Source: an uncultured Clostridia bacterium
GTDB lineage: Bacteria > Bacillota > Clostridia > Oscillospirales > Oscillospiraceae
Assembly (NCBI GenBank): GCA_947572235.1
Contig: CANPBB010000008.1
Span: forward strand, 1-45,457
Length of the DNA stretch: 45,457 nt
Direction of reading: 5' to 3'
A model generated the notes under the pieces. It saw nothing but the letters and a program-made list of their open reading frames with translations, ran no database searches and was not told where the DNA came from. Both the position numbers and the translations under genes were made by a program. This document shows positions 11,107-17,742 of the stretch, in pieces (the stretch's first letter is position 1; every line of letters begins with the position of its first letter).

Positions 11107-11685
11107 TTAATGGAGGGGCATTTTGTCCACGAGCCACAAGGCAAGCCATCGGGGAAAAGTACGGCGGGGCTCGCGGGGCGCGATTCCCACATCTGTGAAC
11201 TGCCAGATTTCTACCGCGCAGGCCCCGTGCCATATGCGATGAAATTTTTTCCCACAGCCGCCGCGCAGCAGACAGATATTGCCAAGGTGGGCGGGATACA
11301 GAAGCTCCTCCATCCGCGTGTTCTACGCCTCGCCGCTCTCACCCGGCATAGGGTTGGTCTCCTGATGTTCCCAGGCCCAAGCGTCTGCGCAGGGAAAAGG
11401 CTCACGGAGCAGGCGGGTGCCTTGGCCGGTAGATAGAGACTTCATCTTAGGCCAAAGTGCGCATCTGACAACCTGCTTCTCCCAGCCATCCCCTATTTGT
11501 GTGAAAAACGGTACATATTCTTCGGGAAGTCCTATTCCAAGCTGTCTCTCCAACGCCCGGATTTTTTTCAACGGCACGGCGGGCCTTATCTTGGCGCCAC
11601 ATGTTTGGATCCTTGCGCTTACATCCAAAAATCCATTTTCAGCCTCCGAAAAAGGGATAATAGAGGGTCCTCCTCGGTTCTGCAA
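11107..11685 (-). pseudogene. Broken SUKH (SMI1/KNR4) immunity-type gene
   Basis: Two overlapping minus-strand frames together resemble one SMI1/KNR4 protein. The first (to 11323) contains [29 protein letters not shown], the classic SUKH pattern of LPxxY and GDGW. It then continues through FPCADAWAWEHQETN before a stop. The second frame (11107-11313) continues with LGNICLLRGGCGKKFHRIWHG and VEIWQFTDVGIAP, the usual C-terminal half. A frameshift near 11310-11330 therefore breaks the gene. SUKH proteins are mostly immunity partners of secreted toxins; no toxin gene is seen nearby, so this is probably an orphan remnant. Confidence 0.65.
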
Positions 11686-11718
11686 GTTCCGGCGTGGGAA
11701 GGACGGCCAAAGATTTCC

Positions 11719-11747
11719 TTGCGTCCGGGGCGGCGACCTGCTACAAT
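11719..11747 (+). promoter_or_regulatory. Promoter of udp
   Basis: TTGCGT (11719-11724), 17 bp, TACAAT (11742-11747), about 22 bp before the udp ATG, hence a very short leader. Confidence 0.5.
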
Positions 11748-11769
11748 AGCCATAAAAGGAGGTATCGCC

Positions 11770-12534
11770 ATGCAGGAATTAGAGAGAGAGTTTCACATCA
11801 ACTGCCGAAGCGGCGACGTGGGCCGCTACTGCATCCTCCCCGGGGATCCGGGGCGCTGCGCGTCCATTGCGGCGCTGTTTGACGGCGCGGAGCTGGTGGC
11901 CCAGAACCGGGAGTACACCGTCTACTCCGGCACCCTCTTGGGGGAGAAGGTCTCTGTCTGCTCTACCGGCATCGGCGGACCTTCTGCTGCCATTGCCTTG
12001 GAGGAGCTTACGAATATCGGCGCGGACACCTTTATCCGGGTGGGCACCTGCGGCGGCATTGCCCTCTCCGTCCAGTCCGGAGACATTGTGGTGGCCACAG
12101 GGGCCGTGCGGCAGGAGGGTACCAGCCGGGAGTACGCCCCCATCGAGTACCCCGCCGTGCCGGATTTTACCCTCACCGCCGCCCTCATCGACGCCGCCAA
12201 GGCCTTGGGCAAGACCTGCCACGCCGGGGTGGTCCAGTGCAAGGACAGCTTCTACGGCCAGCACAGCCCCGGCAGAATGCCCGTCAGCGGAGAGCTTTTG
12301 GCGAAGTGGGAGGCTTGGAAGCGCCTTGGTGTGAAGGCCAGCGAGATGGAGTCCGCGGCGCTGTTCACCGTGGCCGCTGCTCGAGGCGTCCGCTGCGGCT
12401 CCTGCTTCCATGTGATTTGGAATCAGGAGCGGGAGGCCGCCGGTCTGGACCAAGCGATGAGCAAGGACACCACTGCCGCTGTCCGGGTGGGGGTGGAGGC
12501 CCTGAAGCGGGTCATCGCCGCCGACCGGGGATGA
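11770..12534 (+). CDS. udp: Uridine phosphorylase / nucleoside phosphorylase
   Basis: Family enzymes split nucleosides with phosphate to give base and (deoxy)ribose-1-phosphate. The 254-aa length and motifs fit the NP-I family: ILPGDPGRC at the N-terminus (phosphate site), [10 protein letters not shown], and the base-site segment [23 protein letters not shown] near residue 190 contains the ribose-binding Glu-Met-Glu. The HSPGRMP and SFYGQ features favour uridine over purine nucleosides. The ATG at 11770 follows AAAGGAGGT. Confidence 0.85.
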
Positions 12535-12564: not shown

Positions 12565-12593
12565 TTGACAAGAGCGGCTCTCTGGCATATCAT
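12565..12593 (+). promoter_or_regulatory. Promoter of the riboswitch-oadB transcript
   Basis: TTGACA (12565-12570), 17 bp, TATCAT (12588-12593). The expected start (near 12600) lies right at the 5' edge of the aptamer closing stem. Confidence 0.7.
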
Positions 12594-12597
12594 GGGC

Positions 12598-12723
12598 CAA
12601 AAGGGAGTAGTCGGCGTCCCTATGGGGCGCGGCAAAGCGCGTCAGTACGGCCGCAGGCCCGGCTTTGTCTGAAATGATGAGACTTTTGCAGTGCGCAACA
12701 GCGCTGTAAAAGTCTCTCTTTTT
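12598..12723 (+). promoter_or_regulatory. yybP-ykoY (Mn2+) riboswitch with terminator
   Basis: The leader has the conserved landmarks of the yybP-ykoY aptamer in order: AAGGGAGTAG (12601-12610), CAAAGCGCGTCAGTACGG around 12633-12650, CCCGGCTTTGTCTG around 12658-12671, then GACTTTTGC. A closing stem can form between CAAAAG (12598-12603) and CTTTTG (12683-12688). The same CTTTTG is the 5' side of a strong terminator hairpin, so aptamer closure and termination exclude each other. In characterised members Mn2+ binding stabilises the aptamer and turns expression on. The regulated gene is an OadB homologue, not a classical Mn exporter. Confidence 0.8.
12679..12723 (+). terminator. Riboswitch expression-platform terminator
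   Basis: GAGACTTTTGCAGTGCG and the near-complementary AGCGCTGTAAAAGTCTC form a long stem followed by a T-rich run (12719-12723). It ends 7 bp before the oadB ribosome site. Confidence 0.85.
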
Positions 12724-12742
12724 ATTTTTAGGAGGTTTTGCT

Positions 12743-13843
12743 ATGGAACATACCGTATTTTCCAATCTTCTCGCCTTCACGCCCCAACAGGGGGCCATGA
12801 TTCTCATCGGCCTGACACTGATCTATCTGGCGGTCAGGCGGGGGATGGAGCCGGCGCTGCTGCTGCCTATGGGCTTTGGCGCTATTCTGGTGAATCTGCC
12901 CCTGTCGGAGGCACCGGCGCTGGAAACGCTGTTTGAAGCGGGGATTGCCAGCGAGCTGTTTCCGCTGCTGCTGTTCATCGGGGTGGGGGCTATGATCGAC
13001 TTCGGCCCCCTCCTCAGCGACCCCAAACTGCTGCTCTTCGGTGCGGCGGCCCAGCTGGGGGTGTTTCTCACACTGTCGGCAGCGGTGCTGCTGGGCTTTG
13101 ATCTGCGGGATGCCGCCTCTATCGGCATCATCGGCGCAGCGGACGGCCCCACCAGCATCTATGTGGCCAACTACTTCCAAAGCCGGTATCAGGGGGCCAT
13201 TATGGTGGCGGCCTACAGCTACATGGCGCTGGTACCTATTGTCCAGCCGCCGGTGATCCGTCTTTTAACCACAGCGGAAGAGCGGAGAATCCGCATGGAG
13301 TACACCCCCAAAAGCGTGTCCAGAGCCACCAGAATCTTGTTCCCCATTCTGGTGACGGTGCTGGCCGGGGCGGCGGCGCCTAAGAGCGCGGAGCTCATCG
13401 GGTTTTTGATGTTCGGCAACCTGATTCGGGAATGCGGTGTGCTGGAGAGCCTGAGCCAGAGCGCCCAGCACGAGCTGGCCAACCTCATCACGCTGCTGCT
13501 GGGGCTGACAGTGGCGTTCCAGATGCGCGCGGAGCTGTTTGTCACTTGGGAGACGCTGATGATCCTATGGCTGGGCCTGCTGGCCTTCCTGCTGGACACC
13601 GCCGGCGGGGTGCTGTTTGCCAAGGTGCTGAATCTGTTCTGCAAAAGGAAGGTAAATCCCATGATCGGCGCGGCGGGGATCTCCGCCTTTCCCATGGCCT
13701 CCCGCACGGTGCACAGGATGGGCCTGCAGGAGGACCCCTACAACTTCCTTTTGATGCAGGCGGCGGGAGCAAACGTCGGCGGACAGATCGCCTCGGTGAT
13801 CGCCGGAGGGATGATCCTCTCTTTAGTCGCGCCGCTGGTATGA
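12743..13843 (+). CDS. oadB: Sodium-pump decarboxylase beta subunit (OadB/GcdB/MmdB)
   Basis: Beta subunits of biotin-dependent sodium pumps decarboxylate carboxybiotin and export Na+. The 366-aa product is strongly hydrophobic with many membrane helices. It carries the two hallmark sites, IGAADGPTSIYVAN with Asp134 and VNPMIGAAGISAFPMASR with Asn305, both implicated in Na+ binding. The start follows AGGAGG (12730-12735). A 37-aa gamma-like gene follows, but no alpha carboxyltransferase or biotin carrier is seen in the window. It is controlled by a Mn2+-type riboswitch, which is unusual for a decarboxylase. The substrate (oxaloacetate, methylmalonyl-CoA or glutaconyl-CoA) cannot be set from this subunit; some other ion role is possible. 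Confidence 0.88.
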   Translation: MEHTVFSNLLAFTPQQGAMILIGLTLIYLAVRRGMEPALLLPMGFGAILVNLPLSEAPALETLFEAGIASELFPLLLFIGVGAMIDFGPLLSDPKLLLFGAAAQLGVFLTLSAAVLLGFDLRDAASIGIIGAADGPTSIYVANYFQSRYQGAIMVAAYSYMALVPIVQPPVIRLLTTAEERRIRMEYTPKSVSRATRILFPILVTVLAGAAAPKSAELIGFLMFGNLIRECGVLESLSQSAQHELANLITLLLGLTVAFQMRAELFVTWETLMILWLGLLAFLLDTAGGVLFAKVLNLFCKRKVNPMIGAAGISAFPMASRTVHRMGLQEDPYNFLLMQAAGANVGGQIASVIAGGMILSLVAPLV

Positions 13844-13884: not shown

Positions 13885-13998
13885 ATGACAGAGTTTGTTG
13901 TGACACTCAGGATTTTGGCCGAGGGGATGGCAGGTGTGTTCGGTGTGGTGGCGATGATCTGGGCTGGAGCCATATTGCTGCGGCGGATTGGAGAATAA
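13885..13998 (+). CDS. Small gamma-like subunit of the sodium pump (37 aa)
   Basis: A short protein, MTEFVVTLRILAEGMAGVF at its start, with one membrane helix (about residues 14-32) and a basic end LLRRIGE. The GM-x-GVFGVV pattern before the helix resembles OAD_gamma membrane subunits, which anchor the catalytic subunit, but this one lacks the usual long C-terminal tail. GATAGGAG precedes the ATG by about 7 bases, and the gene lies 41 bp after oadB, so the two are probably co-transcribed. Confidence 0.65.
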   Translation: MTEFVVTLRILAEGMAGVFGVVAMIWAGAILLRRIGE

Positions 13999-14146: not shown

Positions 14147-14416
14147 ATGGACAGCCTGCGCCCGGCGTCTGCGGGAACACTGGAATCCAGCGACGCCTAT
14201 GTGGAGATCGAACCCAGTGAGGGGGGGATTCAGATCCACTTGGAGTCCGTCGTCTTGGAGCGCTTTGGTGAGGCCATCCGGGAGACGGTCCAAGAGGTGC
14301 TGGAGGAGCTGCATGTGGCGGATGCCTGTGTCCGCGTGGTGGACCGCGGGGCCTTGGACTGCGTGATCCGGGCCCGTGTGGAGACCGCCGTCCGCCGAGG
14401 AAGGGGGGAGTGCTGA
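14147..14416 (+). CDS. citD: Citramalate/citrate lyase acyl carrier protein (gamma)
   Basis: CitD carries the phosphoribosyl-dephospho-CoA arm on which the acetyl group swings during lyase turnover. The 89-aa protein has the attachment motif AGTLESSDAYVEIEP, with Ser14 at the known modified position, and the family segment SVVLERFGEAIRETVQEVLEEL. The ATG at 14147 follows AAAGGAGG (about 14129-14136); the open frame extends upstream without a ribosome site. It opens the citDEF operon and overlaps citE by one base. Given the complete methylaspartate pathway here, the lyase most likely acts on citramalate. Confidence 0.92.
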   Translation: MDSLRPASAGTLESSDAYVEIEPSEGGIQIHLESVVLERFGEAIRETVQEVLEELHVADACVRVVDRGALDCVIRARVETAVRRGRGEC

Positions 14417-15294
14417 TGCGCAGAAGCATGCTGTTTTTGCCGGGGAACAACCCCAATATGCTGATCAACGGGAGCTGTCTGGGGGCCGACGCGGTGATCT
14501 TCGATTTGGAGGACGCGGTATCCCCGGCGGAGAAGGACGCCGCCCGGATTTTGGTGCGCAACACCATGCGGTATATGGACTTCCGGGGCTGTGAGCGCAT
14601 TGTTCGGGTCAATGCCGTGGACACGCCCTACTTTGCCGCGGATCTGGAGGCCATTCTGCCGGAGGGGCCGGATATGCTTCTCCTGCCCAAGGCCGGCACA
14701 GCGGCGGAGGTACAGGCGGCGGATGCGGCCATGACACAGGCGGAGGAGCGGCTGGGGCTTCAAAAGCGGGCCGCGCTGATGCCCCTCATCGAGACAGCCT
14801 TGGGCGTGGAGAACGCCTTCGCCATCGCCGCCTGCTGTCCGAGGGTGGAGGCGCTGTTTTTGGGGGCGGAGGATTTGACCGCCGATTTGCAATGCAAACG
14901 CACCAAGGGGGGGCGGGAGATCGAGTATGCCAGGACCCGGCTGGTGATGGCTGCCCGGGCCGCCGGGACGGAGGTCTACGACACTCCCTTCACCGATGTG
15001 AACGACGACGAGGGGATCGAGGCCGACGCCGCTTTGGCCAAGGCGCTGGGATTCTCCGGAAAGTCCTCCATCTCCCCCCGGCACGTGGAGGTGATCAACC
15101 GGGTATTCAGCCCATCGCCGGAGGAGATCCGGTACGCCTATGAGGTGATGGATGCCATCGCCGAAGCCAAGGCGCAGGGCAAGGGGGCCATCGCCCTCCA
15201 CGGCAAGATGGTGGACGCTCCCATTGTCTCCCGGGCTCAGCGGACCATCGCCATGGCGCAGGCGCTGGGGATTTCGAGGGAGGTGACGGCATGA
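14416..15294 (+). CDS. citE: Citramalate/citrate lyase beta subunit
   Basis: CitE cleaves the acyl-thioester form of (citra)malate into pyruvate (or oxaloacetate) plus the acetyl-carrier. The 292-aa TIM-barrel protein starts MRRSMLFLPGNNPNML, has the Mg-binding FDLEDAV (Asp30, Glu32, Asp33), the VRVN strand motif, LLLPKAG and LGAEDLTADL. The ATG at 14416 overlaps the citD stop (TGATG) and sits behind AAGGGGGGAG. It overlaps citF as ATGA. Confidence 0.93.
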   Translation: MRRSMLFLPGNNPNMLINGSCLGADAVIFDLEDAVSPAEKDAARILVRNTMRYMDFRGCERIVRVNAVDTPYFAADLEAILPEGPDMLLLPKAGTAAEVQAADAAMTQAEERLGLQKRAALMPLIETALGVENAFAIAACCPRVEALFLGAEDLTADLQCKRTKGGREIEYARTRLVMAARAAGTEVYDTPFTDVNDDEGIEADAALAKALGFSGKSSISPRHVEVINRVFSPSPEEIRYAYEVMDAIAEAKAQGKGAIALHGKMVDAPIVSRAQRTIAMAQALGISREVTA

Positions 15295-16703
15295 GCAAGG
15301 TTGTAAAGAGCCTCCGGGAGGCCATCGCGCTGGCGGGGCTGCGGGACGGGATGACCGTCTCCTTCCACCATCACCTGCGCAATGGGGATTTCGTTTTGAA
15401 TTTCGTGATGGACGAGATTGCCGGGATGGGGATTCGGGATCTGACTGTGAACGCCAGCGCCCTCTTCGATGTCCACACCCCTCTGATAGGGCATACGGAG
15501 AGCCGCGTGGTCACTCATCTTGCGGCCAACTATATCTCCGCCGGTTTAGGGCGGGCCATCTCACGGGGGGCGCTGGAGGCGCCGGTGGAGTTTCGCACAC
15601 ACGGGGGACGGCCTAAGGACATCGCTCTGGGACGGACGCCCATTGACGTGGCCTTTATCGCCGCCCCCGCCGCGGACCCCATGGGCAACTGTACCGGCAG
15701 GATCGGCAAGTCCACCTGCGGCAGCCTAGGCTACGCCTTTGCCGACGCCATGTACGCCAAGCGGGTGGTGGTGATCACCGACAATATAGTGCCCTATCCT
15801 CTGCAGGGGTGGTCCATCCCGGAGAGCTATGTGGACTATGTGGTCACGGTGGACGCCATCGGCGACCCCAAGGGCATCGTTTCCGGCACCACACAGGTGA
15901 CACGGGACCCGGTGGGACTGGTGATGGCCGCACAGGCGGCCAAGGTCATTCAAGCCTCCGGGCTCCTGAAGGAGGGCTTCTCCTTCCAGACCGGGGCCGG
16001 CGGGGCCTCCTTGGCGGCGGCCCGGTTTTTGAAGGACATCATGCTGCGGGAGGGAATTCAGGGCAGCTTCGCCTCCGGCGGCATCACCGGCTATCTGGTG
16101 GATATGCTCCGGGAGGGGTGCTTCCGCTCGCTGATGGATGTTCAGTGCTTCGATCTCAAGGCGGTGGAGTCCCTGCGGGAGGATCCCCGGCACCAAGAGA
16201 TCTCCGCCATGCAGTACGCCGCCCCCGGCGAGCGGGGCGCGGTGGTGGACAGCTTGGATGTGGTGATCTTGGGGGCCACGGAGATTGACACGGACTTCCA
16301 TGTCAATGTCCACACCGACTCCAACGGCTCCATCATGGGCGGCTCCGGCGGGCATAGTGACACCGCCGCCGGAAGTAAGCTGGCCATGATCATTGCCCCG
16401 CTGTTTCGGGCCCGGATGCCCATTGTCACTGACCGTGTGACCTGCATCTCCACACCCGGCCAAGACATCGACGTGCTGGTGACACAGGCCGGCGTGGCGG
16501 TGAACCCACGGCAGGCGGAGCTGCGGGAGCGTCTGGAGCAGGCCGGTCTGCCGGTGGTGGACATCCACGAGCTGAAGGAGCGGGCGGAGGCCATCACCGG
16601 AAAGCCGAAGGCCCTCCCCAAGGGGGATCGAGTCGCGGCCAAGGTCATCAGCCGGGAGGGGGAGCTGCTGGACACCATCTATACCCTTCCCGAAGGTCGT
16701 TAA
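15291..16703 (+). CDS. citF: Citramalate/citrate lyase alpha subunit
   Basis: CitF is the transferase that swaps the acetyl group on the carrier for citramalate (or citrate). The 470-aa product belongs to the CoA-transferase-like CitF family: SFHHHLRNGDFVLN near the N-terminus, DVAFIAAPAADPMGNCTG, FSFQTGAGGASLAAARFL and GATEIDTDFHVNVHTDSNGSIMGGSGGHSD are all characteristic. The length is slightly shorter than the usual 500 or so. It overlaps citE by four bases; two hairpins separate it from the hydratase genes. Confidence 0.93.
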   Translation: MSKVVKSLREAIALAGLRDGMTVSFHHHLRNGDFVLNFVMDEIAGMGIRDLTVNASALFDVHTPLIGHTESRVVTHLAANYISAGLGRAISRGALEAPVEFRTHGGRPKDIALGRTPIDVAFIAAPAADPMGNCTGRIGKSTCGSLGYAFADAMYAKRVVVITDNIVPYPLQGWSIPESYVDYVVTVDAIGDPKGIVSGTTQVTRDPVGLVMAAQAAKVIQASGLLKEGFSFQTGAGGASLAAARFLKDIMLREGIQGSFASGGITGYLVDMLREGCFRSLMDVQCFDLKAVESLREDPRHQEISAMQYAAPGERGAVVDSLDVVILGATEIDTDFHVNVHTDSNGSIMGGSGGHSDTAAGSKLAMIIAPLFRARMPIVTDRVTCISTPGQDIDVLVTQAGVAVNPRQAELRERLEQAGLPVVDIHELKERAEAITGKPKALPKGDRVAAKVISREGELLDTIYTLPEGR

Positions 16704-16748
16704 AATATTACCTCCGAACGGAAAGGCAGGAAGTCATGTGTGCCTTGC

Positions 16749-16866
16749 GCTCGCCGCTGTAAACAGCGGCGAGCAAAACAGCTCAAATCAAATATATGAT
16801 TTCCGGATGTTTCATTCGAAAATCATAAAACGGCCCTGAAGGGACAGACGTTGTCCGTCCCTTCAG
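16749..16866 (+). other. Two hairpins between citF and the hydratase genes
   Basis: Perfect 11-bp stem GCTCGCCGCTG/CAGCGGCGAGC (16749-16774) and 10-bp stem CTGAAGGGAC/GTCCCTTCAG (16836-16866). Neither has a T-run, so they probably tune mRNA stability or processing rather than end the transcript. Confidence 0.5.
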
Positions 16867-16902
16867 AGTGATAAAAGCATAAAAACAGAAGGAGGAGCAG
16901 CT

Positions 16903-17742
16903 ATGCGAGAGATCAGCGCGCAGCAGATTACCGAGGCGGTAAAGCGGCTGTGCATCCACACCAACTGCCACCTGAGCGGGGACATCAAGTCCCGCATTGC
17001 CCAGTGCCGGGAGCAGGAGACTTGGCCTCAGGCCAAGGAGATTTTAGAGCGGATCATAGAGAACTACCAGATCGCCGATGAACAGGACCAGCCCGTCTGT
17101 CAGGACACCGGCGCGGCCTGCGTGTTTTTGAAAATCGGTCAGGAGGTCCATGTCACCGGCGATATCACCGACGCTGTCAATGAGGGCGTCCGCCAAGGCT
17201 ACAGCGAGGGGTATCTGCGCAAGAGCGTGGTGAGAGACCCCCTGCGCCGGGTAAACACCGGGGACAACACCCCCGCCTTTATCTACTACGACTTGGTCCC
17301 CGGCGATCAGATCGAGATCACCTTGGCCCCCAAGGGCTTTGGCAGCGAGAATATGAGCCAGATCAAGATGCTCCGTCCCTCCGACGGCCTTCAGGGGGTA
17401 AAGGACTTTGTCCTTCAGGCAGTGGAGGATGCGGGTCCCAACCCCTGCCCACCCATTGTGGTGGGTGTGGGCATCGGCGGCACCTTTGACAAGGCGGCGT
17501 ACCTATCCAAGCGGGCGCTGCTGCGCAGTGTGGAGGAGCGAAACGCCGACCCCTTCTATGCGGAGCTGGAGGAAGAGCTGCTCTCCGCCATCAATGCCTT
17601 GGGTATCGGGCCGCAGGGCTTCGGCGGCCGGACCACGGCCTTGGCCGTGAATATCGAGACTTTGCCCACCCACATTGCCGGCCTTCCCGTGGCGGTGAAC
17701 ATCAACTGCCATGTGACCAGACACAAGACGGAGGTGCTTTAA
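16903..17742 (+). CDS. Fumarase-type hydratase alpha subunit, probable mesaconase
   Basis: This is the catalytic half of a two-subunit, oxygen-sensitive 4Fe-4S class I hydratase (TtdA/FumA N-terminal type). The three cluster cysteines are visible: Cys66 in QPVCQDTGA, Cys182 in GPNPCPPIVVGVGIGG and Cys269 in NINCHV. The 279-aa length is normal. The ATG follows AGAAGGAGGAG. Its position between the citramalate lyase and glutamate mutase genes argues that it hydrates mesaconate to citramalate (2-methylmalate), as the clostridial methylaspartate pathway requires. Plain fumarase or tartrate dehydratase activity is the alternative. Confidence 0.88.
   Translation: MREISAQQITEAVKRLCIHTNCHLSGDIKSRIAQCREQETWPQAKEILERIIENYQIADEQDQPVCQDTGAACVFLKIGQEVHVTGDITDAVNEGVRQGYSEGYLRKSVVRDPLRRVNTGDNTPAFIYYDLVPGDQIEITLAPKGFGSENMSQIKMLRPSDGLQGVKDFVLQAVEDAGPNPCPPIVVGVGIGGTFDKAAYLSKRALLRSVEERNADPFYAELEEELLSAINALGIGPQGFGGRTTALAVNIETLPTHIAGLPVAVNINCHVTRHKTEVL

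Follow-up and report, generated by a model that had tools for sequence, protein, structure and literature searches.

A yybP-ykoY-type leader recurs before stand-alone OAD_beta genes of Clostridia and suggests a role for them in manganese handling

Why the gene of an OadB homologue stands alone behind what looks like a metal-sensing leader is the question raised by a locus of an uncultured Clostridia bacterium (Oscillospiraceae; assembly GCA_947572235.1, contig CANPBB010000008.1). The window, i.e., the whole stretch of DNA that was analysed, covers positions 1 to 45,457 of the forward strand (45,457 nt). A preliminary description had read the 178 nt at 12565..12742 as a Mn2+-type yybP-ykoY riboswitch controlling a sodium-pump decarboxylase beta subunit. 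The reading favoured here, which is considered probable, is a transcriptional ON switch of the yybP-ykoY class placed before a stand-alone OAD_beta cation transporter that would relieve Mn2+ excess. The RNA itself is a typical representative of a class already described. New, as far as searched, are (i) the recurrence of this class before a stand-alone OAD_beta clade, (ii) the residue pattern of that clade, and (iii) a link between L3 subtype and gene family. No report of a yybP-ykoY RNA with OAD_beta or OadB was found in open-access searches, with the gene tables of the founding papers lying outside them, and in the accessible portion of a Na+ riboswitch study (PMC9337991) yybP-ykoY appears only in the reference list.

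The leader fills the gap between a phosphorylase gene and the OAD_beta gene (Table 1). The predicted folding energy of the 178 nt is -74.7 kcal/mol, with a z-score of -4.0 relative to shuffles. With the terminator removed, 12598-12689 folds alone into P1.1, a 6/4 L1 loop (GGAGUA/GAGA), P1.2, P2, and a P3 that carries the 7/0 one-sided L3 loop UCAGUAC. The landmarks of the class were said to occur in the right order, and sequence and fold both agree with this (GGAGUA, UCAGUAC, GAGA). The promoter was likewise correctly placed right at the stem, as its -10 box ends four bases 5' of P1.1. Promoters with at least 9 of 12 matches precede 27 of 36 OAD_beta leaders, 2-24 nt 5' of the modelled start; the distance is 5-8 nt in 19 of these 27 and 2 nt in the window. 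Since the window promoter is closer than that of most leaders, the transcript may begin inside the P1.1 stem and leave P1.1 slightly short. By itself the promoter is weak evidence, because a scan at a lower threshold lists one such site in the region with 0.9 expected in its shuffles.

Table 1. Features of the leader and adjoining genes, in window coordinates
Feature	Position	Strand	Description
Phosphorylase gene (PNP_UDP_1)	11497-12534		ORF on the other side of the leader gap; Pfam name
Promoter, sigma-70-type	12565..12593	+	-35/-10, TTGACA-17-TATCAT; 11/12 consensus matches; -35 from 12565, -10 at 12588-12593
yybP-ykoY-type aptamer without P4	12598..12688	+	fold, alignment, covariation, R1 model
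P1.1	12598-12603/12683-12688	+	six pairs
L1 5' strand GGAGUA	12604..12609	+	invariant in 32/32 aligned OAD_beta leaders
P1.2	12610-12612/12676-12678	+	aptamer helix
P2	12614-12618/12626-12630	+	aptamer helix
P3	12631-12641/12660-12669	+	aptamer helix
L3 UCAGUAC	12642..12648	+	holds A12644, equivalent of the published Mn2+ discriminators A41 (L. lactis) and A48 (X. oryzae)
P3.1	12649-12652/12656-12659	+	aptamer helix
L1 3' strand GAGA	12679..12682	+	AGA invariant in 32/32 aligned OAD_beta leaders
Intrinsic terminator	12679..12726	+	16 pairs (12679-12716), then a U-rich tail; 5' arm includes the P1.1 3' strand
Ribosome-binding site AGGAGG	12730..12735	+	read off the sequence
OAD_beta gene (P0001)	12743..13843	+	stand-alone, 366 aa; PF03977 489 bits, TIGR01109 408 bits
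Candidate small partner of OAD_beta	13885..13998	+	37-aa one-helix ORF; recurrence after clade members

Relatives of the gene were sampled as the best 80 of the protein matches listed together with 30 loci from near genomes. A regular expression of the landmarks matches upstream of OAD_beta at 36 of 112 loci (the window and one sister-genome gene each being counted twice), compared to 2 hits in 2,240 shuffles and 3 in 1,070 stretches taken at random from the minus strand. An alignment of 32 of these leaders (A1) omits two copies (L006, L089), a leader with a long insert (L062) and one missed by a tighter expression (L097); two others (L032, L074) were found after A1 was made. On A1, a 26-pair structure is paired in 91.4% of cells and has two-sided changes at 19 of its 26 pairs. 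Its covariation score is 0.546, against 0.238 for shuffled and 0.094-0.124 for slid controls, the latter comparison being biased in its favour as the structure was set by hand on A1 itself. Every one of the 32 rows pairs at P1.2, where each pair has 11 to 13 two-sided changes, and RNAalifold, unaided, finds P1.1, P1.2, P2 and the upper part of P3. The enrichment over controls and the covariation of the helices thus argue that the leader is not a product of chance. A survey for OadB genes behind the same riboswitch, as had been suggested, reveals it on 36 of the 91 clade members in the sample (best 80 matches listed plus near genomes). It was not detected at the other 55, which include one weak match (L040), and this is counted against the favoured explanation. 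Placed on the protein tree, the riboswitch needs 19 changes, 7 of which are forced by well-supported branches. Other riboswitch classes were considered for the switch-less members and rejected, as Rfam at gathering score gives four matches in 44 of these 55 loci, none of them adjoining the OAD_beta gene.

The standing of the leader with respect to Rfam is less direct. The preliminary description had treated a sub-threshold covariance score as decisive against it, and with the yybP-ykoY model RF00080 the score is, literally, below threshold: neither RF00080 in the window nor any other Rfam family in the leader is matched at gathering score, RF00080 has no match in the leader at E ≤ 10, and its four weak matches across the whole genome do not include the window site. 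RF00080 exceeds its cut-off, however, in 0 of 60 relatives and 0 of 245 Clostridia genomes. The miss is thus not counted against the class; it is judged to reflect a lack of sensitivity and not a defining feature of the class, and RF00080 was set aside as the deciding test. At E ≤ 0.001, and with the tighter filters applied to large searches (in those of more than 40 genomes, part of the candidates were scored), the model matches in 18 of the 245 genomes. One of the 18 (L134, in G254) is the L061 leader of an OAD_beta gene, at 24.1 bits and E 1.1e-4, below the cut-off.

A covariance model built only from the 32 OAD_beta leaders of A1 (R1) recovers all 21 loci that RF00080 finds weakly (L118-L138). 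L134 is a training sequence of R1; the other 20 loci lie outside the training set and are matched at E 1.6e-10 to 0.0035. The window belongs to the training set too and has a score of 82.5 bits. At E ≤ 0.01, R1 has matches in 197 of 391 Clostridia genomes, with part of the candidates scored. Next to the 0 of 245 for RF00080, this makes the Rfam model seem too strict for Clostridia, where it appears to overlook many members of its class. In the window RNA, P1.1 and P1.2 enclose an L1 loop of the form GGAGUA/(G,A)AGA, L3 is asymmetric and holds the invariable adenosine, the P1/P2/P3 arrangement is backed by covariation, and there is homology to accepted members (RF00080 loci through R1, and leaders of MntP genes). 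The four-way junction with P4 is absent from the window, in which the junction linker is 6 nt. Linkers of at most 9 nt occur in 49 of 58 OAD_beta and 21 of 21 MntP leaders, as collected with a model trained mostly on P4-less RNAs. As the MntP leaders are also short-linkered, P4 is not taken as deciding membership.

The predicted direction of the switch follows from the position of the terminator. Competition between the closing stem and a terminator was part of the preliminary description and is borne out, with the 3' strand of P1.1 lying inside the terminator stem (Table 1). A terminator starts in this strand in 33 of 36 OAD_beta leaders (exceptions L018, L060 and L116). The same competition is described for L. 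lactis, where Mn2+ holds P1.1 and blocks termination (PMC11087558, as excerpted). Given this shared strand, which parallels the L. lactis arrangement, the window leader is predicted to be a Mn2+-ON transcriptional switch. Without ligand, the 3' strand of P1.1 would join the terminator and RNA polymerase would stop before the gene; Mn2+ would dock L1 against L3 and hold P1.1, such that the terminator could not form and OAD_beta would be transcribed. The L. lactis RNA (RF00080) also shares with the window a GGAGUA-type L1 and a 7-nt UCANNNC L3 with the discriminator adenosine. By contrast, the window RNA has no P4, has the short linker, controls OAD_beta and goes unscored by RF00080. At odds with the ON behaviour of L. 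lactis, and counted against the favoured explanation, is a review of C. difficile riboswitches that, in the portion consulted, labels the Mn2+ class as 'OFF' switches, which bind Co2+, Cd2+ and Ni2+ as well (PMC11477304).

The protein is an OadB homologue, as had been stated (Table 1), and it is also correct that no alpha subunit is encoded nearby; a complete OAD operon (gamma, biotin carrier, beta, alpha) is located elsewhere in the genome (G000:C22). P0001 is about 50% identical to the beta subunit of that operon over residues 61-362. In a tree of 109 proteins, 91 relatives of P0001 split from 18 complex-type betas with an SH-aLRT of 100. At least one partner gene is in the flank of 15 of the 18 complex-type betas. 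Near the 37 riboswitch loci, no alpha, gamma or biotin carrier gene was found (0/37; tblastn at E ≤ 1e-6 over flanks of at most 5 kb, or less where a contig ends), a set that counts the window as L088 and one gene under both L008 and L089. Two switch-less clade members (L079, L086) have a biotin carrier gene nearby.

A sequence match to 6iva settles the fold family of the protein. Residues of the clade were mapped onto OadB of S. typhimurium (6iva/6iww), with roles as given in the available text of PMC7274780. Equivalents of the Na+-site residues Asp203, Ser382 and Asn412 are kept in the clade, including P0001, as is Glu40 in all 115 clade proteins that have a letter at this position. In other respects the clade departs from OadB: apart from standing alone, with partner genes not found near its riboswitch loci, it has Ala for Gly201 in 116 of 116 rows (0 of 18 complex-type betas), Gln for Val416, and Ile for Thr148 in 111 of 116. 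Arg304 is kept in 11 of 116 clade rows, being lost or gapped in 105, and Asn311 in 46 of 116, compared to 18 of 18 complex-type betas for each; in P0001 these residues are Ser and His, respectively. Changes to Arg304 or Asn311 of OadB are described as inhibiting decarboxylation only moderately, and Glu40 as critical for it (PMC7274780). The pattern, read from sequence, tends to favour a cation transporter no longer tied to decarboxylation. The conservation of Glu40 counts against full uncoupling, since this residue is critical in OadB, and the conserved Na+ site would also fit a plain Na+ transporter. OAD_beta retains the cation-binding core of OadB and is probably uncoupled from carboxybiotin decarboxylation. 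The name 'sodium-pump decarboxylase beta subunit' is doubtful: the protein sits in a stand-alone clade of its own, even though the critical Glu40 is retained.

The rival that survives best, though unlikely, takes that name at face value. OAD_beta would still be a Na+ pump subunit that borrows its alpha subunit in trans, and Mn2+ would only signal a need for a Na+ gradient, e.g., for Na+-driven exchangers. The full OAD operon of the genome and the retained Na+-site residues and Glu40 agree with this account, as do the Na/Ca exchangers that share the switch class, the Na+-I riboswitches that elsewhere control oxaloacetate decarboxylase genes (PMC9337991, in part), and the citrate lyase-like genes and fumarase downstream. 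It is weakened by the loss of Arg304, even if changing this residue in OadB costs decarboxylation only moderately (PMC7274780), and by the failure to find alpha and gamma genes near any of the 37 riboswitch loci. In addition, the sister genome is the only other place where the citrate neighbourhood turned up, and no Na+ riboswitch reaches gathering score in the 44 of 55 switch-less clade loci searched (the presence of the family in the library being assumed).

The neighbourhood in question lies 3' of OAD_beta, at 14410-17742 of the window, and comprises a citE-like gene (14410), citF (15291) and a fumarase gene (16903). Its presence would suit oxaloacetate metabolism and is counted against the favoured explanation. 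Membership of OAD_beta in an operon for citrate fermentation was considered and rejected, as the arrangement recurs only in L008/L089 of the sister genome. By eye, TATATAAT before the first citrate gene looks like a separate promoter; a promoter scan of it listed none.

OAD_beta probably works with a tiny one-helix partner, for which the 37-aa ORF that follows it is a candidate without a family name. A similar small ORF, defined by a motif chosen after the downstream ORFs were inspected, follows 29 of the 34 clade members with the riboswitch and 39 of the 55 others; it follows 0 of 17 complex-type betas and is found in 15 of 1,060 random stretches. Pfam has no match for the window's own ORF. 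In 6 of 8 small ORFs tested, OAD_gamma is seen below its cut-off (E 0.0012 to 0.12), and unrelated families score about equally. The 37-aa ORF was considered as a gamma subunit and found to lack support, a profile comparison with the genome's own gamma giving a probability of 0.3%.

Mn2+ as the ligand and a metal-linked role of OAD_beta are inferred. Both were proposals of the preliminary description and are now stronger, because MntP genes of the same genus carry the same leader class: an R1 match is present at all four MntP loci fetched from the window's genus (G001, G002, G008, G009), and a fifth fetched locus, from another family, has none. According to the part of PMC6754395 consulted, Mn2+ contacts N7 of the invariable L3 adenosine, with docking through L1, and L3 is UCA41AU43UC in L. 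lactis and ACA48U49ACU52 in X. oryzae. All 169 aligned leaders, which come from all gene groups, have the CA of L3; GGAGUA is retained in 168 of them, and the 3' strand of L1 is GAGA, AAGA or CAGA in all 169, in counts that include some genes twice (e.g., L061 and L148).

Behind 129 R1 sites, the first gene encodes a P-type ATPase in 38 cases, a Na/Ca exchanger (Na_Ca_ex) in 35, OAD_beta in 22 and MntP in 21; the rest are SPFH (3), ABC (2), one each of a Na/Pi cotransporter, TerC, CitMHS and Kup, and 4 without an assigned family. Names are from Pfam for some representatives, with ABC and Kup assigned by eye. The 129 comprise 100 R1 places from the upper part of the ranking, 28 of the 30 loci L139-L168, and L170; outside this set are L145 (the window), L149 (not oriented by the regular expression), the lower-ranked places and a few sites at contig ends or already covered. 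As the R1 ranking favours OAD_beta-like leaders, these shares are not population estimates.

Unexpectedly, the first base of L3 varies with the gene family. It is A in 21 of 21 MntP leaders (the ACA form) and U in 54 of the 58 leaders before OAD_beta, in 31 of 36 before exchangers and in 22 of 39 before ATPases. The difference between UCA before OAD_beta and ACA before MntP is evidence that the ion might not be Mn2+ alone. A second rival, held to be unlikely as well and ranked after the first, is accordingly a yybP-ykoY variant tuned to another divalent ion (e.g., Ca2+) or to several, with the L3 subtype marking the shift and with OAD_beta, the exchangers and many ATPases answering that ion. 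One genome (G002) holds both forms, ACAUACU before MntP (L278) and UCAGUCC before OAD_beta (L096); yybP variants of altered specificity are expected by PMC7266159, and a pneumococcal mgtA switch is called Mn/Ca-sensing in PMC11434433, each as far as the excerpts go. Against this variant, the L. lactis crystal structure with bound Mn2+ has the U form UCAAUUC (PMC6754395), the discriminator adenosine is common to all 169 leaders, an OAD_beta leader of G001 (L116) starts its L3 with A, and the correlation of L3 with gene family is inflated by related sequences. Since the L. lactis RNA crystallised with Mn2+ is of the U form, Mn2+ for both forms is the simplest reading. The link between L3 subtype and gene family offers a direct test of whether some yybP-ykoY RNAs sense other ions.

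If Mn2+ is the signal, the transporter would ease Mn2+ excess either by exporting Mn2+ itself or through an ion exchange that aids export, and OAD_beta is perhaps a Mn2+ exporter in a Mn2+ regulon. Taken together, the orphan protein is suggested to help in manganese handling, and not in acid decarboxylation, in many gut Clostridia. A bolder proposal, regarded as somewhat doubtful, is that stand-alone OAD_beta and its one-helix partner form a decarboxylation-independent family of Mn2+ (or divalent ion) exporters on Mn2+ riboswitches across Clostridia. Such a family may stand in for MntP in the window genome and its sister: MntP was not found in either (87% complete for the window genome, 93% for G010) but is present in the remaining 9 of the 11 genomes searched in the genus. 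This absence is only suggestive, amounting to one event at most, as the two genomes are close relatives. Metal riboswitches can reveal the substrates of ambiguous transporters: the yybP ligand was itself traced through a Mn2+ exporter gene of E. coli (PMC7266159, in excerpt), and by similar reasoning attention turns here to a clade whose annotation is that of a Na+ pump subunit. If true, bacterial Mn2+ homeostasis would gain a new transporter family and many annotations in gut Clostridia would be corrected.

Very improbable is a different RNA class that merely resembles yybP-ykoY, or an ordinary attenuator: no Rfam family reaches gathering score in the leader, the best weak match by E-value being SSRC10 (E 0.16, 20.5 bits), but R1 recovers the RF00080 loci, mostly from outside its training set, and the SSRC10 consensus itself has the yybP-ykoY landmarks. 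The Na+-I riboswitch (DUF1646 motif), which can precede oxaloacetate decarboxylase genes, was also considered as the identity of the leader and rejected. It goes unmatched in the leader even at E ≤ 10, neither the window nor 15 relatives match it at gathering score (its presence in the searched library being assumed), and it is described as having two extended stems (PMC9337991, in part), unlike the window aptamer.

Two further yybP-ykoY-type R1 sites occur in the window genome, one (G000:C5:30273-30371; L169, L179) before a Na/Pi-cotransporter-PhoU homologue and the other (G000:C21:5323-5434; L170) before a Band_7/flotillin-type protein. In other genomes, such leaders are paired within one locus, about 1.1 kb apart in L147 (G361:C83) and about 0.4 kb apart in L135 (G168:C199). 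SSRC10 (RF02617) is filed as a streptococcal sRNA and belongs to no clan. Like the window RNA, its consensus combines the landmarks with a P4-less junction and a terminator; the window differs in scoring well short of the SSRC10 cut-off of 56 bits. Judged by its consensus, SSRC10 may be an unrecognised member of the yybP-ykoY class.
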